64,000 nt of DNA from an uncultured Hyphomicrobiales bacterium (GTDB taxonomy: Bacteria; Pseudomonadota; Alphaproteobacteria; Rhizobiales; Xanthobacteraceae): assembly GCA_903878085.1 (NCBI GenBank), contig CAIRGJ010000026.1, positions 62,001 through 126,000 on the forward strand, written 5' to 3'. This document shows, piece by piece, positions 32,248 to 39,512 of this stretch. The notes beneath the pieces were generated by a model. The model searched no databases and had not been told where the DNA came from. It saw only the letters and a list, made by a program, of their open reading frames with translations. The translations under genes were made by a program, and so were the position numbers. Position 1 is the first letter of the stretch; the number at the start of each line of letters is the position of its first letter.

Positions 32248-33246
32248 CTATTCGGCCGTCAGTTCCTTGGCCTTCTTGACCCAACTGTCGACGCGGCCGG
32301 GCAAGCCGACTTCTTCGCCGACATTGTGCGCGGCCTTGTCATTGAGCTCGGCGATCTGCTGGAGGTGGAAGATTCCGAGATCGTTGAGCTGCTTCTCGAT
32401 CGCCGGCGACACGCCGGGCAGCTTCTTGAGGTCGTCGGCAACGCCGCGCGGACCGGCGAGTTGCTCGAAGCCGAGGTCGCTCGCGGCCGGCACCACCGGC
32501 ACCGATTCCACGACCGGCTTCTCGGCAGCGCCGAGATCGACGCCGTGATCGCCTTGCGAACGCGAGATGCCATCGAGCGCGGCGCGCGCGATCAGGTCGC
32601 AATACAGCGTCACCGCGCGGGCGGCGTCGTCATTGCCGGGCACCGGATAAGTGATGCCCTTGGGATCGCAGTTGGTGTCGACGATGGCCGCGACCGGAAT
32701 GCCGAGACGCTGGGCTTCCTTGATCGCGATGTCTTCCTTGTTGGTGTCGATCACGAACAAGAGGTCGGGCACGCCGCCCATGTCCTTGATGCCGCCGAGC
32801 GAGCGGTCGAGCTTGTCGCGCTCGCGCTGCATCGTCAGGCGCTCTTTCTTGGTGTAGCCGCCGGTATCGCCGGAGCCGAGCATCTCGTCGAGCTTGCGCA
32901 GCCGCGAGATCGAACCGGAAATGGTCTTCCAGTTGGTCAGCGTGCCGCCGAGCCAGCGCGAATTGACGAAATACTGCGCCGACTGCTTGGCCGCCGCCGA
33001 GATTGCGTCCTGCGCCTGGCGCTTGGTGCCGACGAACAGGATGCGGCCGCCTTTGGCCGCGGTGTCGCTGACAGCCTGCAGCGCGCGCGCCAGCATCGGC
33101 ACGGTCTGGGCGAGATCGACGATGTGGATGTTGTTGCGGGTGCCGAAGATGTATTGACCCATCTTCGGGTTCCAACGGTGGGCCTGGTGGCCGAAGTGCA
33201 CGCCAGCTTCCAAGAGCTGACGCATCGTGAAGTCAGGAATCGCCAT
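32248..33246 (-). CDS. rpsB: 30S ribosomal protein S2 with C-terminal extension
   Basis: Small-subunit protein S2, starting at [21 protein letters not shown] (33246); the ORF track begins 26 codons too early in the leader. The core ([48 protein letters not shown]) ends near residue 230. It is followed by about 100 extra residues with a helix-hairpin-helix-like module ([20 protein letters not shown]), giving 332 residues against about 241 in E. coli. Such an extension occurs in other alphaproteobacterial S2 proteins; its job is unknown to me. Confidence 0.96.
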
Positions 33247-33362
33247 TTCAAAAATTCTCCGGTTGATCCGCCGCGGACTTGTGTGAGCCCCGTGAAGGGA
33301 CCACCGGAAGGCCTTTTGACCCATTGTCGGGGCCGAAAGCCAAAAGTCCGCGTGAGTGATGT
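33247..33362 (-). promoter_or_regulatory. Structured rpsB leader, candidate ribosomal-protein autoregulatory RNA
   Basis: The roughly 115-base leader between the predicted start of transcription and rpsB has a perfect 8-base closing stem, GCGGACTT (33344-33351, minus strand) with AAGTCCGC (33273-33280). It encloses smaller hairpins such as GGCTTTCGGCC and CCCTTCACGGGG. A leader of this length and fold suggests feedback by S2, as known for rpsB in other bacteria, but no known motif was matched. Confidence 0.45.
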
Positions 33363-34107: not shown

Positions 34108-35163
34108 TCACACCCCGAAATATTTCGAATAGCGGTCTTTAAGTTCGTCCATCTGCGAGATGATGCCCTCCGGATCGGTGTTCATGATCTTGATCGACGA
34201 TAGCGGCACGCGGCCGGGTCTGTCCTTGACCAGCGCGTGCACCGAACGCAGCCCGCCGATGTCGACGAACAATTGCTGTGCCTCCGGCGTGAACAGGAAA
34301 TTCTGGAACAGCCGCGCGGCATTGGGGTGCGGCGCCGCGGCAAAGATCGCCGACGGCATCGCGATCATCGGCGAACCCTCGAGCGCATAGACCGGTTCGA
34401 TCGGCTTGCCGCTCTCCTTCGAGATCAGCACGTTGTATTCGTTGCCGTCCGCCATCACCGGACGCTCGCCGAGAATGACCTTCTTCGGCGTGTCGGTCGC
34501 CGACTGCACCTGCATCACCTTCTGCTTGGCGAGCTTTTCCAGATAAGGCCAGCCGAGGTGCTTCACCATCTGATAGGTCGAGGTGATGATGGTGCCGGAA
34601 TAGCTCGGGCTCGCCTTGACCAACTTGTTGAACCATTTCGGATCGAGCAAATCGGCGAAGCTCTTCGGCGCGTCGTCCTTTTTCACCAGTTCGGTATTGT
34701 AGGCGATGACGCATAGCGACGAGCGCACGATGGCGTGCGTACCGTCGGCGTCTCGGTATTCGGCGGGAATGTGCCTGGCGACATCCTCCGGCACATAAGG
34801 CGCCAGCAGCTTCTGCTGTTTCCAGGTGATGAACTGCGCGAGGTCGCCGGTGTTGCAGGCATCGACCGAATGGATATTGGCGGCATATTCCTGCGCGATG
34901 CGGGTGAAAATGCGTTCGGCGCCGGCGCGCTCGACGCGCATGGTGACGCCGATTTTTTTCTCGAAAGCCTTGCCGAGCGCTTCGGCGACCTGAAGGTCGG
35001 CCGAGGTGTACCAGACGACATTGCCTTCCTTTTTCGCCGCGGCAATTAGCGCCGGCGTAATTGCCTCCGCCGGCGGCGCTGACGCGAGCACGCGCGTTGC
35101 AAGCGCCGCGAACGGCAAAGCGGCGCAGGATTTGAGCAGCGTGCGGCGAGAGAGAGTGAGCAT
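34108..35163 (-). CDS. Periplasmic ABC-transporter substrate-binding protein (iron/AfuA-like), orphan
   Basis: A 351-residue type 2 periplasmic binding protein of the ferric-iron/putrescine-like class (EGNVVWYTSADLQVAEALGKAF near residue 45, DPKWFNKLVKASPSYSGTII near 165, NAARLFQNFLFTPEAQQLF near 290). The ATG at 35163 has GGAGG at good spacing; the ORF track start is 26 codons upstream. The N-terminus SRRTLLKS followed by a hydrophobic stretch is a likely Tat signal. No ABC permease or ATPase gene is adjacent, so the ligand and partners are unknown. Confidence 0.85.
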   Translation of the reverse strand: MLTLSRRTLLKSCAALPFAALATRVLASAPPAEAITPALIAAAKKEGNVVWYTSADLQVAEALGKAFEKKIGVTMRVERAGAERIFTRIAQEYAANIHSVDACNTGDLAQFITWKQQKLLAPYVPEDVARHIPAEYRDADGTHAIVRSSLCVIAYNTELVKKDDAPKSFADLLDPKWFNKLVKASPSYSGTIITSTYQMVKHLGWPYLEKLAKQKVMQVQSATDTPKKVILGERPVMADGNEYNVLISKESGKPIEPVYALEGSPMIAMPSAIFAAAPHPNAARLFQNFLFTPEAQQLFVDIGGLRSVHALVKDRPGRVPLSSIKIMNTDPEGIISQMDELKDRYSKYFGV

Positions 35164-35236
35164 GGTGATCCTCCCGGGTGATTTCTTTTTTAGGGAGGTT
35201 AGCATTGCGAAGGCAGGCTGTCTGGACACCCTTTCT
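35164..35236. other. Upstream region of the orphan binding-protein gene
   Basis: This short stretch holds the ribosome binding site GGAGG for the minus-strand binding-protein gene and presumably its promoter. No clear -35/-10 pair stands out. Together with the repeat at 35237-35387 and the dnaE fragment at 35409-35474 it makes up the gene-free interval before the kinase gene. Confidence 0.4.
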
Positions 35237-35387
35237 GTCATTGCCGGGCTTGACCCGGCAATCCATGAACGCGGGCGTTATCAGCAGGCTTACGTAAGTC
35301 CGCCATCGACGCGACTAAGTCATGGATGCCCGGGTCATAGGCGAGCGAAGCGACGCCGTCCTTCGGACGGCTATGCCCGGGCATGAC
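35237..35387. repeat. Compound palindromic intergenic repeat
   Basis: Contains the palindrome TGCCGGGCTTGACCCGGCA and a second module in which GTCATGGATGCCCGGG pairs with CCCGGGCATGAC around an inner hairpin GCCGTCCTTCGGACGGC. The terminal sequence GCCCGGGCATGAC is shared with the tsf-rpsB gap, and a shortened relative (CCCCGGAATGAC) lies at 36043-36055 before dnaE. Such elements are frequent in intergenic DNA of Bradyrhizobium relatives. Confidence 0.75.
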
Positions 35388-35408
35388 AACGGAAAGAGCG
35401 GCACGCTC

Positions 35409-35474
35409 CTACAACGCCTCGACCTGCACCACGCCGGGCACGGCCTTGATGGCGCCGGCGATCTGCGGCGAGAC
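35409..35474 (-). repeat. Duplicated 3' end of dnaE (66 bases)
   Basis: This stretch matches the last 66 bases of dnaE (36063-36128) at 64 of 66 positions and in the same orientation. On the minus strand it encodes VSPQIAGAIKAVPGVVQVEA then Leu and TAG, exactly the DnaE C-terminus. Both differences are synonymous (Val GTC/GTG and Ala GCC/GCG). It and the true dnaE end flank the kinase gene as direct repeats. Confidence 0.93.
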
Positions 35475-35478
35475 AGCC

Positions 35479-35982
35479 CTAGCCAAGTGGCTCACTCCAC
35501 GAAAGGAAAAAATCAGCCCGGTCCTTAGGATTTGACCGCGCGAAGTATCTCGCAACCTGATTTTCCAATGCATATTCACGTGGATCGATTACTCTGACCT
35601 CAGGAGCGATCGGGTAGCTTGGTCGGTACGAAACGTTTTCCACGAAAACCAAATATCCTAGTTCGCGACTGTGAACTTGGCTTAGCGCGTCTAGCAGAAG
35701 CACGCCCTCAACGATCAGGCATCGATGATTCCCACGAGCTTGCATGCAGCGATCTAGTTCTTCGACGCGCCATTCTATCGGTCCCTGATCCACCGGTCGG
35801 GTGAGATACAAATCGAGATGCAGAGAAGGTATGCCGAGTTGCCACGCAAGCCAGGTGGCCGCCGAGCTCTTGCCCGCGGAGCCATCACCGTCGAAACCTA
35901 TGACGGTCGGATTTCGGTCAGGCCCTATGTGTTCTGTCACGCACCGATAAAGTTCAGAATATTCGGCTGGTGCGGTTTTCAT
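35479..35982 (-). CDS. P-loop nucleoside kinase-like protein (uridine kinase family), probably acquired
   Basis: A 167-residue P-loop protein with Walker A GFDGDGSAGKSS (residues 29-40), a LHLDLYLTR segment near 55 that fits the lid/substrate Asp of the uridine kinase-phosphoribulokinase family, and a Walker B-like RCLIVEGVLLLDAL near 87. It probably phosphorylates a small molecule; the substrate is unknown. Two hand-counted lines of the gene are about 50 percent GC against about 67 percent in neighbouring dnaE, which suggests transfer. Its stop lies 4 bases from a 66-base copy of the dnaE 3' end, with the real dnaE end on the other side. Confidence 0.75.
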   Translation of the reverse strand: MKTAPAEYSELYRCVTEHIGPDRNPTVIGFDGDGSAGKSSAATWLAWQLGIPSLHLDLYLTRPVDQGPIEWRVEELDRCMQARGNHRCLIVEGVLLLDALSQVHSRELGYLVFVENVSYRPSYPIAPEVRVIDPREYALENQVARYFARSNPKDRADFFLSWSEPLG

Positions 35983-36062
35983 GGAAAGATTTCATGAATG
36001 CTGAGAGCGTATCATTTTTATTTTCGGGCTTACACTACGCGCGCCCCGGAATGACAACAGGA

Positions 36063-39000
36063 CTACAACGCCTCGACCTGCACCACGCCGGGCACCGCCT
36101 TGATGGCGCCGGCGATCTGCGGCGACACCTTGAAGCGGCCGGGCAGCTTCACCTCGACCTCGGTGCCCTGCGCCAGCAGCAGCACCATGCTGACCTCACC
36201 ATCGCCATTGTTGCCGCGGGGAGCCGGCTCCAGCCGCTTGGCGATGCCTTCGATCGGCGCGCCGTCGCGCAAGAACACGCGCAGGCCCTTGTGCAGATTG
36301 GCCGCCGCGGCGTCGAGCGGCTCGGCCGACTGGATGCGCGCGCGCACTTCGTCGCCCTGCACCTCGGCCGACAAGATCAGCAAAACGGCGGTGCCGGGTT
36401 CGAGCAAATCGCGATATTCCGCAAGGCCCTCGGAGAAGACGATCGCCTCGAAATGGCCGGTCGGATCGGACAGGCCGAAGATGCCCATCTTGTTGCCGGT
36501 CTTGGTGCGGCGCTCCTGGCGCGACACGACCGTGGCCGCGACCTTGCCGGCGGTTGCGCCCATCTTCACGGCGCGGGCGAATTCCGCCCAGGGCTGCACG
36601 CGTAGCTTCTTGAGCACCGCGGCGTAATCGTCGAGCGGATGACCGGACAGGAAGAAGCCGACCGCTTCGTATTCGCGGCGCAGCCGTTCGGCCGGCAGCC
36701 AGGCTTCGATCTGCGGCAGTACAATCGGCTCCGGCGAACCGCCGCCGCCGAACAATTCGTTCTGGCCGACCGCCGCGGTTTCATGCGCGCGCTGGGCACG
36801 GCCGAGCACCTGCTCCATCGCGCCAAGGACGCGGGCGCGGTTGCGCTCGAACGCGTCGAAGGCGCCGGCGGTGGCCAGGCTTTCCAGCACGCGCTTGTTG
36901 ACGGCGCGCGGGTTCACGCGGGCGGCGAAGTCGGCGAGATCGCGGAACGGGCGGTCGCCGCGCGCTTCGACGATGGCTTCGACCGCCTGGCGGCCGACGC
37001 CTTTGAGAGCTGCCAGCGCGTAGATGATGGTGTTGCCCTCGACGCCGAAAGCGACGCCGGAACGGTTGATCGAGGGCGGATCGACCTTGATGCCGAGGCG
37101 CTCGGCCTCGGCGCGGAATTCGGACAGCTTATCTGTATTACCCATATCAAGGGTCATCGACGCCGCCATGAACTCGACCGGATAATTGGTTTTCATGTAC
37201 GCCGTTTGATAGGCGACCAGCGCGTAGGCGGCGGCGTGGCTCTTGTTGAAGCCGTATTCGGCGAAGCGTTCGAGCAGATCGAAGATCGCGTCGGCCTGCA
37301 CCTTCTCGATGCCGCGCTCGGTCGCGCCTTTGACGAAATGTTCGCGCTGCTCCTGCATCTCCTTGCGGATTTTTTTGCCCATGGCGCGGCGCAACAGATC
37401 GGCTTGCCCCAGCGAATAGCCGGCCAGAATCTGGGCGGCCTGCATCACCTGTTCCTGGTAGACGATGACGCCGAAGGTTTCCTTCAGGATCACTTCCAGT
37501 TTGGGATGGATGTATTCCGGCGGCTCCATGCCGTGCTTGCGCGCGCAATAGGTCGGGATATTCGCCATCGGGCCGGGGCGATACAGCGCGACCAATGCGA
37601 TGATGTCCTCGAAGCGGTCGGGCTTCATGTCGAGTAGCGCGCGGCGCATGCCGGCGCTTTCCAATTGGAACACGCCGACCGCTTCGGCGCGCGCCAAGAG
37701 ATCGTAGGTTTTCGTATCGTCGAGCGGGATGGCGGTGAGGTCGATGTCGACGCCGCGGCTCTTCAAGAGCGCCACCGCGGTCTGCAACACGGTGAGCGTC
37801 TTGAGGCCGAGGAAGTCGAACTTCACGAGACCCGCCTGCTCCACCCATTTCATGTTGAACTGGGTGACCGGCATGTCGGATTTCGGATCGCGATACAGCG
37901 GCACCAGGTCCGACAGCTTGCGGTCGCCGATGACGATGCCGGCGGCGTGGGTCGACGCGTGGCGCGTCAGGCCCTCGAGCTTGCGGGCGATGGCGAAGGC
38001 GCGCTTGACGGTCGGATCGCTGTCGGCTTCGGCCTGCAGTTTCGGCTCGCCCTCGATGGCCTGCGCCAGCGTGATCGGCGCTGCCGGATTCTGCGGCACC
38101 AGCTTGCACAGCTTGTCGACCTGGCTATAGGGCATCTGCAGCACGCGGCCGACGTCGCGCAGCACGCCGCGCGCCTGCAGCGTGCCGAAGGTGATGATCT
38201 GCGCCACCTGGTCGCGGCCGTAGCGCGCCTGCACGTAGTCGATCACTTCGCCGCGGCGGTCCTGGCAGAAGTCGACGTCGAAGTCGGGCATCGACACGCG
38301 CTCGGGATTGAGGAAGCGTTCGAACAACAGGCCGAAGCGGATCGGGTCGAGATCGGTGATGGTGAGCGCGTAAGACACCAAGGAGCCGGCGCCCGAGCCA
38401 CGGCCGGGGCCGACCGGGATGCCTTGCTGTTTGGCCCACTGGATAAAGTCGGCGACGATCAGGAAGTAGCCCGGATATTTCATGCGCGCGATGACGTCGA
38501 GTTCGAAGGCGAGACGTTCGCGGTATTCGTCCTCGGTGCGGCCTTCGGCCAAGCCCGCACTGGTGAGCCGCGCGGTGAGGCCCGCTTCGGCGCGCTTGCG
38601 CAACTCCTCGGCCTCGTCGACCACGCTGCCGCCCTCGCCGACCGAAAAGCGCGGCAGGATCGGCGCCTTGGTGCGCGGACGGAAGGCGCAGCGCTCGGCG
38701 ATCTCGACCGTGGAGGCCAGCGCCTCCGGCAGATCGGCGAATAATTCGCGCATCTCGGCGCGGCTCTTGAAGCGGTGCTCGGCGTTAACCTGGCGGCGGT
38801 CGCTTTGCGACACGACGCGGCCTTCGGCGATGCAAATCAGCGCGTCGTGCGCTTCGTGGTCGGCAACGGTGGCGAAGAACGGCTCGTTGGTCGCGACCAG
38901 CGGAATGTTTTTGGTGTAGGCGAGATCGATCAGCACCGGCTCGGTCATGCGCTCGTTCGGCGTGCCGTGGCGCTGCAGCTCGACATAGAGCCGGTCGCCG

Positions 39001-39512
39001 AACAGGCGGATGAGCGAGTCGAAGCGCGTGGCGGCAAGATGGCTTTGGCCGGAAGCGATGGCGTGATCGAGCGGCCCGCCGGGGCCGCCGGTGAGCGCGA
39101 TGACGCCGTCCGTTTCGCCGTCGAGCCATTCCAGCTTGAGCCGCGGCGGCTCGTTGTCGGGGGAATCCAGGAAGGCGCGCGACGACAGCCGCATCAGGCT
39201 GCGGTAGCCGGTCTCGGAGGCGGCCAGCAGCACGACGCGCGAGCGCTCGGGGCTCGCATTGGCGTTGCGGGCGCCGTGGTCGGTGTCGCCGAAATCGAGG
39301 CTAAGCGCGCAGCCGACGATCGGCTGGATGCCATAGCCGGCGAGCTTCTCGGAGAATTCCAGCGCACCGAACATGTTGTCGGTGTCGGTCAGCGCCAGCG
39401 CCGCCTGCTTGTCGGCCTTCGCCAGTTCCGCGAGCCGCGCAATCGGCAGCGCGCCTTCCAAGAGCGAATAGGACGAGTGCACGTGCAGGTGCACGAAATC
39501 GAGGTCGGACAT
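36063..39512 (-). CDS. dnaE: DNA polymerase III alpha subunit
   Basis: Replicative polymerase of 1149 residues. The N-terminal PHP domain begins FVHLHVHSSYSLLEGALP. The palm has the catalytic motif PDFDVDFCQDRRGEVIDYV near residue 405, followed by the fingers (VPLYRDPKSDMPVTQFNMKW). The helix-hairpin-helix region (ALKGVGRQAVEAIVEARG) is near 830 and the OB fold/tau-binding C-terminus ends VQVEAL. This is DnaE1; the error-prone DnaE2 normally lacks this length and context. Its 3' end is partly duplicated 650 bases downstream. A 32-residue LexA-controlled peptide gene lies 291 bases upstream on the same strand. Confidence 0.97.
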   Translation of the reverse strand: MSDLDFVHLHVHSSYSLLEGALPIARLAELAKADKQAALALTDTDNMFGALEFSEKLAGYGIQPIVGCALSLDFGDTDHGARNANASPERSRVVLLAASETGYRSLMRLSSRAFLDSPDNEPPRLKLEWLDGETDGVIALTGGPGGPLDHAIASGQSHLAATRFDSLIRLFGDRLYVELQRHGTPNERMTEPVLIDLAYTKNIPLVATNEPFFATVADHEAHDALICIAEGRVVSQSDRRQVNAEHRFKSRAEMRELFADLPEALASTVEIAERCAFRPRTKAPILPRFSVGEGGSVVDEAEELRKRAEAGLTARLTSAGLAEGRTEDEYRERLAFELDVIARMKYPGYFLIVADFIQWAKQQGIPVGPGRGSGAGSLVSYALTITDLDPIRFGLLFERFLNPERVSMPDFDVDFCQDRRGEVIDYVQARYGRDQVAQIITFGTLQARGVLRDVGRVLQMPYSQVDKLCKLVPQNPAAPITLAQAIEGEPKLQAEADSDPTVKRAFAIARKLEGLTRHASTHAAGIVIGDRKLSDLVPLYRDPKSDMPVTQFNMKWVEQAGLVKFDFLGLKTLTVLQTAVALLKSRGVDIDLTAIPLDDTKTYDLLARAEAVGVFQLESAGMRRALLDMKPDRFEDIIALVALYRPGPMANIPTYCARKHGMEPPEYIHPKLEVILKETFGVIVYQEQVMQAAQILAGYSLGQADLLRRAMGKKIRKEMQEQREHFVKGATERGIEKVQADAIFDLLERFAEYGFNKSHAAAYALVAYQTAYMKTNYPVEFMAASMTLDMGNTDKLSEFRAEAERLGIKVDPPSINRSGVAFGVEGNTIIYALAALKGVGRQAVEAIVEARGDRPFRDLADFAARVNPRAVNKRVLESLATAGAFDAFERNRARVLGAMEQVLGRAQRAHETAAVGQNELFGGGGSPEPIVLPQIEAWLPAERLRREYEAVGFFLSGHPLDDYAAVLKKLRVQPWAEFARAVKMGATAGKVAATVVSRQERRTKTGNKMGIFGLSDPTGHFEAIVFSEGLAEYRDLLEPGTAVLLILSAEVQGDEVRARIQSAEPLDAAAANLHKGLRVFLRDGAPIEGIAKRLEPAPRGNNGDGEVSMVLLLAQGTEVEVKLPGRFKVSPQIAGAIKAVPGVVQVEAL

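Follow-up and report, generated by a model that had tools for sequence, protein, structure and literature searches.

A kinase gene between two copies of the dnaE 3' end in a Xanthobacteraceae genome: a probable recombination scar with counterparts in Bradyrhizobium

The stretch of DNA analysed here, called the window in the following, comprises 64,000 nucleotides from an uncultured bacterium of the Xanthobacteraceae. A second, partial copy of the 3' end of a conserved gene, dnaE, is present in it downstream of the gene and on the same strand. The features of the locus are the following.

32248–33324, minus strand: rpsB, the conserved far edge of the dnaE–rpsB interval
34108–35163, minus strand: gene of a solute-binding protein (SBP), found directly 3' of dnaE in the genomes G323, G308 and G253
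35234–35390, no strand assigned: REP-like dispersed intergenic repeats, with many further copies elsewhere in the genome
35409–35474, minus strand: displaced dnaE 3' end, copy 2 of the repeat, 66 bp with 64/66 identical (sequence comparison)
35475–35478, no strand assigned: junction of 4 bases from the kinase stop codon to the displaced tail (from the sequence)
35479–35982, minus strand: P-loop (uridine-kinase-like) gene, 167 aa, probably acquired (ORF)
35983–36062, minus strand: spacer of 80 bp from the dnaE stop to the kinase start
36063–36128, minus strand: last 66 bases of the resident dnaE, copy 1 of the repeat (sequence comparison)
36063–39512, minus strand: dnaE, DNA polymerase III alpha subunit, 1149 aa, intact (ORF)

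The original prediction described a 66-base repeat of the dnaE end, and the sequence comparison agrees with it in full. The two copies are identical at 64 of 66 positions and have the same orientation, and the two mismatches, GTC/GTG and GCC/GCG, are third-position changes that are synonymous in the dnaE frame. Within the pair there are exact direct repeats of 33 and 29 bp, the longest in the window (the next longest is 24 bp), and a crude estimate puts the probability of finding such a pair by chance anywhere in the 64 kb at ca 1e-25. Only one gene, that of the kinase, lies between the copies. It is intact, with 80 bp between the dnaE stop and its start and 4 bp between its end and the displaced tail, and no obvious microhomology was seen at the latter junction. 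Neither an integrase nor a transposase gene was found between the copies, where the kinase is the only ORF, as had also been stated for the integrase on first reading.

The motif ATGACAAC had been reported to precede both copies. The motif is real, but it is located outside the duplication, being the end of dispersed REP-like repeats, and it stands at differing distances from the two dnaE ends, 19 and 4 bp. These palindromic repeats adjoin both dnaE ends (35234–35390 and 36038–36062) and occur in many copies in the genome and in its relatives. In the spacer, positions 36038–36062 are the head of such a repeat, and positions 35983–36021 have a GC content of 33%. The possibility that the REP-like repeats acted as the mobilising agent was considered and rejected on the grounds of their genome-wide dispersal, their unequal distances from the stops and their differing types.

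The kinase gene differs clearly from its surroundings in composition. The GC content is 53.2% for the ORF and 52.4% for the interval between the copies, compared to 64.3% for the window, and the contrast that had been pointed out originally thus persists on full computation. Just 0.16% of 504-bp windows are equally AT-rich, and the GC3 value is 0.51 vs 0.81–0.87 for the neighbouring genes. Two motifs were recognised in the protein sequence, a Walker A motif, GFDGDGSAGKSS, and LIVEGVLLL. It gave no match to Pfam or PADLOC and only a sub-threshold match to NCBIfam, with no curated family model above the cut-off. An AlphaFold model calculated from eight sequences has a pLDDT of 82.8, and the predicted fold is nearest to PDB entry 1rz3, which is uridine kinase-like (probability 1.00, E 2.8e-6, TM 0.59). 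With both the Walker A motif and a kinase fold in the model, the gene probably encodes a uridine-kinase-like P-loop kinase. Promoter, terminator and Rfam scans around it found nothing.

One scenario to be considered is that the gene behaved selfishly, for instance by encoding a toxin-like kinase, and drove its own insertion, with a long duplication of the target. The product would be the same, namely a gene with a long direct repeat of the target on either side (PMC1643837, PMC3031569), and one homologue of the kinase has a marginal match to the Pfam Zeta_toxin model (E 0.004, below the cut-off). However, there is no partner antitoxin gene between the copies, the window protein gave no restriction-modification or defence-family match, and the genes that occupy the corresponding position in Bradyrhizobium (see below) are metabolic or protease genes and not selfish systems. 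We regard this scenario as very improbable.

Homologues of the kinase are rare. They are 35–50% identical to it and were found in Bradyrhizobium, a Xanthobacteraceae MAG, Azospirillum and Roseomonas. Three other genomes among 398 of the family have one, a pattern scan of 84,980 species genomes gave five kinase loci, two of which are in genomes already among these three, and the number of plasmid homologues is one. The search for the kinase next to dnaE that had been proposed originally was run, and in none of the loci read is dnaE located beside a kinase homologue. Flanking direct repeats or duplicated gene ends of the kind seen in the window were likewise found at none of the other kinase loci examined.

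The surroundings of the homologues are varied. In the Xanthobacteraceae MAG (G010; L003:1447-2128, which is the same as L059), the gene is ca 110 bp 3' of a tRNA-Leu(cag) gene and in the same orientation, and no repeat of the tRNA-Leu end is present at this locus. The homologues of an Azospirillum megaplasmid and of Roseomonas (L037:5711-8205 and L057:5711-8205) lie ca 220 bp from genes of 151 and 680 aa, and these two loci are closely alike despite the different genera in their records. Part of the 680-aa protein is tyrosine-recombinase-like, but neither Pfam nor NCBIfam gave a match, and the Azospirillum kinase homologue carries an in-frame stop. In Bradyrhizobium macuxiense (L056:3773-5960) the homologue comes after a 402-aa gene of unknown family and before the gene of a 144-aa small protein, and is possibly part of a multi-gene unit. 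One kinase homologue adjoins a gene that, by its sequence, is putatively VirB4-like.

We now turn to the state of the site in relatives of the window. In G323, G308 and G253, the SBP gene is located immediately 3' of dnaE, with a single-copy, insert-free site and no kinase, and this is the empty site that the original prediction had suggested looking for. The sequence 3' of the displaced tail aligns with the sequence directly behind dnaE in these three genomes, that is, the tail is joined to the flank that follows dnaE in relatives. Since the same SBP flank stands behind dnaE where the kinase is missing, the displaced tail would carry the old dnaE boundary and the kinase would be an acquisition. 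Of the 44 genomes of the genus, only that of the window has the kinase and the other 43 are without it, while relatives of the dnaE C-terminus were found in 41/44, and the dnaE–rpsB interval varies within the genus in both length and gene content.

It is important to point out that in a layout of the type R-X-R-Y, the import may be either X or the second R-Y. By parsimony, the kinase side is the probable newcomer in the window, as the kinase is absent from the relatives and the old flank is common to them. The new unit would consist of the dnaE tail, the spacer and the kinase or, equivalently, of the kinase and the tail. The dnaE gene of the window (G000) gives a weak signal that agrees with this assignment, in that its identity to dnaE of G308 is 92% at −750 to −600 and 79–83% in the last ca 450 bp, a pattern suggestive of a mosaic. 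The displaced tail matches G308 at 64/66 and the resident tail at 62/66, the two tails of the window differing at only two sites. That both mismatches between the tails are synonymous likewise counts weakly in favour of a recombinational origin.

The nearness of the displaced fragment to the dnaE of other species, which had been proposed as a check on its donor, was also evaluated. The comparison could be made, but it ends in ties, with 64/66 for the window's own dnaE, for G308 and for G034. Among the 399 family genomes the best match outside the window is also 64/66, and the fragment is too little sequence to pick a donor, because the dnaE end is so conserved that other species reach this value. 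As no sampled genome was found to have dnaE followed by this kinase, we infer the donor in the window by analogy.

The analogy comes from Bradyrhizobium. The search for recurrences consisted of a 66-bp tail probe of the 399 family genomes followed by locus comparison, a self-comparison of 124 dnaE loci, and a scan of 272 Bradyrhizobium genomes with position checks. Displaced dnaE tails were found in 3 of the 266 Bradyrhizobium genomes with a dnaE match, and these are the following.

G336 (L086): displaced tail of 235 bp, 91% identical; the cargo is a carbonic anhydrase
G289 (L087): displaced tail of 57 bp, 100% identical; the cargo is a trypsin-like protease and an FHA protein
G139 (L159), first displaced tail: the cargo is a caspase-domain protein
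G139 (L159), second displaced tail: the cargo is a putative acyl-CoA metabolism block (named from sequence)

The two displaced tails of G139 have lengths of 84 bp (93%) and 58 bp (86%). Second matches in G057, G101, G358, G347, G397, G399, G428, G446, G462, G480, G285 and G551 were examined by position or alignment and discarded, being distant, weak or assembly-related and not tandem tails.

The origin of the cargo can be followed in these cases. The carbonic anhydrase of G336, the protease and FHA genes of G289 and the caspase gene of G139 all directly follow dnaE natively in other Bradyrhizobium species. G336 and G384 share a collinear stretch that runs from dnaE, includes the carbonic anhydrase and stops ca 20 bp before the displaced tail, while the displaced tail of G336 and the lipoprotein gene are collinear with a unit of displaced tail and lipoprotein gene in G289. 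In G139, the first displaced tail and ca 1.3 kb behind it are collinear, at 83%, with the native dnaE end of G305. That the cargo consists of other species' dnaE neighbours points to recombination between two dnaE loci, in which one join was homologous and the other was not.

The resident and displaced tails of G336 were found to be 9.4% different, which is as much as between species, and those of G289 are identical at 57/57 positions. These numbers bear on the option of a local duplication, in which the kinase inserted behind dnaE, a tandem duplication including the dnaE end took place, and the second kinase copy was then deleted. No donor dnaE is needed in this case, and the near-identity of the tails in the window and in G289 is what one would expect. 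However, two events are required, a divergence of the size found in G336 does not fit, and the presence of other species' dnaE neighbours as cargo is left unexplained. Furthermore, no remnant of a second kinase is present elsewhere in the genome of the window. We consider a local duplication to be distinctly unlikely.

The tails start at 57, 58, 66, 84 and 235 bp from the stop in the different cases, such that there is no constant attachment core, and this variation fits non-homologous joins rather than one common site. Nor was a recognised integrase found in the bracketed intervals of G336, G289 and G139. Both results speak against site-specific integration, according to which an integrative element would have used the dnaE 3' end as its site and later lost its integrase, with the kinase as what is left of it. 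The restored gene, the direct repeat and the distal displaced end do have the geometry of islands at the 3' ends of tRNA or protein genes, and the positions of some homologues, close to a pair of putative recombinase genes in Azospirillum and Roseomonas and 3' of tRNA-Leu in G010, could be taken to favour it. On the other hand, the homologues examined are without direct repeats of the kind in question, and the Bradyrhizobium cargo are ordinary dnaE-neighbour genes, so that we judge site-specific integration to be unlikely. Regarding the original suggestion of an island-like insertion at the dnaE end, the insertion with a re-created end is upheld by the kinase-free genomes, but the island-like mechanism is not, considering the missing integrase, the differing tail starts and the nature of the cargo. 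The alternative that had been offered along with it, acquisition of a donor dnaE 3' fragment together with the kinase by homologous recombination, is supported by the Bradyrhizobium cases and, for the window, by analogy with them.

In the mechanism that we propose, chromosomal DNA of a related bacterium, containing the 3' portion of dnaE with the kinase just behind it, would enter, and the incoming dnaE portion would recombine with the resident dnaE through homology. At the other end the join would be non-homologous and fall within the dnaE tail of the recipient, 66 bp ahead of the stop. This would restore dnaE with a donor-type end and add the kinase, while the last 66 bp of the recipient would stay downstream, displaced and still attached to the old flank. 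Two routes to the second join are conceivable, both described in PMC3240628. It may have come about by homology-facilitated illegitimate recombination, or the donor fragment may first have been closed into a circle by ligation and then have undergone one crossover. Either route would lead to an identical product.

We estimate the probability that the window locus is a recombination scar of this kind, with the donor dnaE end and the kinase imported by dnaE homology and the recipient tail left behind, to be about 75%. Three parts of this picture are inferred: that the agent was RecA-type recombination, where the kinase came from, and in which direction the import went. Some points count against the mechanism: in experiments, homology-facilitated illegitimate recombination occurs only rarely (PMC3240628), the junction is without clear microhomology, and the tails of G289, which are 100% identical over their 57 bp, can be explained without a divergent donor.

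To put the dnaE cases in proportion, other genes were used as controls. None of the 703 other genes in the same loci has a tail copy, and in sampled 20-kb regions one of 468 genes does. The difference between 3/266 for dnaE and 1/1171 for the control genes corresponds to a Fisher p of ~0.02. The control genes come from a smaller number of genomes and in part from the same surroundings, and the window is left out of the count since it prompted the search. By this comparison, tail scars are at most moderately enriched at dnaE. The control exception is a 180-bp repeat of 95% identity in G139 (L182, G139:C1:4200001-4220000), so that scars of this type also occur at genes other than dnaE. This repeat is of the same kind as the dnaE scars and brackets genes that were assigned from their sequences as a putative SDR-type gene and an ArsR-type regulator.

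One can speculate that in the Xanthobacteraceae genes are captured preferentially at the dnaE 3' end and that the series of tails, two of them in G139, are fossils of successive imports, although we find this doubtful. If it is true, the length of dnaE, its conservation or replication-coupled breaks possibly make the gene a favoured recombination anchor.

The entry of genes beside conserved genes without mobile elements is usually inferred from statistics only. A displaced tail is a physical trace of one event, and it reveals both the anchor gene and the position of the non-homologous join. Given densely sampled strains, it would also reveal the imported side. With the scar at a replication gene in four genomes, and with traceable cargo in three of them, the mechanism becomes testable, and its signature is simple to search for genome-wide.

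Finally, the scar can be compared with known systems. Insertion with long target duplication has been proposed for restriction-modification genes in Helicobacter pylori (Nobusato et al. 2000, as reported in PMC1643837 and PMC3031569). As far as these reports describe it, the likeness is that one gene or operon is accompanied by a long direct target repeat, which is seen by genome comparison and does not need a transposase. The difference is that the genes there are restriction-modification genes, whereas here they are a kinase and, in Bradyrhizobium, other species' dnaE neighbours; the latter give a source for the repeat, unlike in the Helicobacter pylori case. Displaced 3' ends of T6SS effector genes and orphan Rhs tails have been attributed to homology-facilitated illegitimate recombination (PMC5361080). 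There too, a conserved upstream part is the anchor, a new 3' part is imported together with a neighbour gene, and the old 3' end is pushed downstream. However, the loci concerned encode polymorphic toxins and are under diversifying selection, whereas dnaE is a housekeeping gene whose protein is essentially unchanged.

Many hotspots of variable gene content between conserved genes are also without mobile elements, and the core genes that flank them recombine often (Oliveira et al. 2017, PMC5635113). In that respect they resemble the dnaE locus, but they are explained by double homologous recombination, for which a scar is not required, whereas at dnaE one of the joins lies within the other copy of the core gene, and a tail stays behind. 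Islands that depend on an integrase and occupy protein-coding genes, such as dusA (PMC4482086), show a general likeness in that they too sit at a gene end and are accompanied by a direct repeat, but the integrase and the fixed attachment core that characterise them are missing in the window and in the other dnaE scars. Judged from the sequences, the dnaE scar would thus fall outside that class. The scar itself is of a known kind, and what is new is dnaE as the anchor and, in three other genomes, a traceable source of the repeat.
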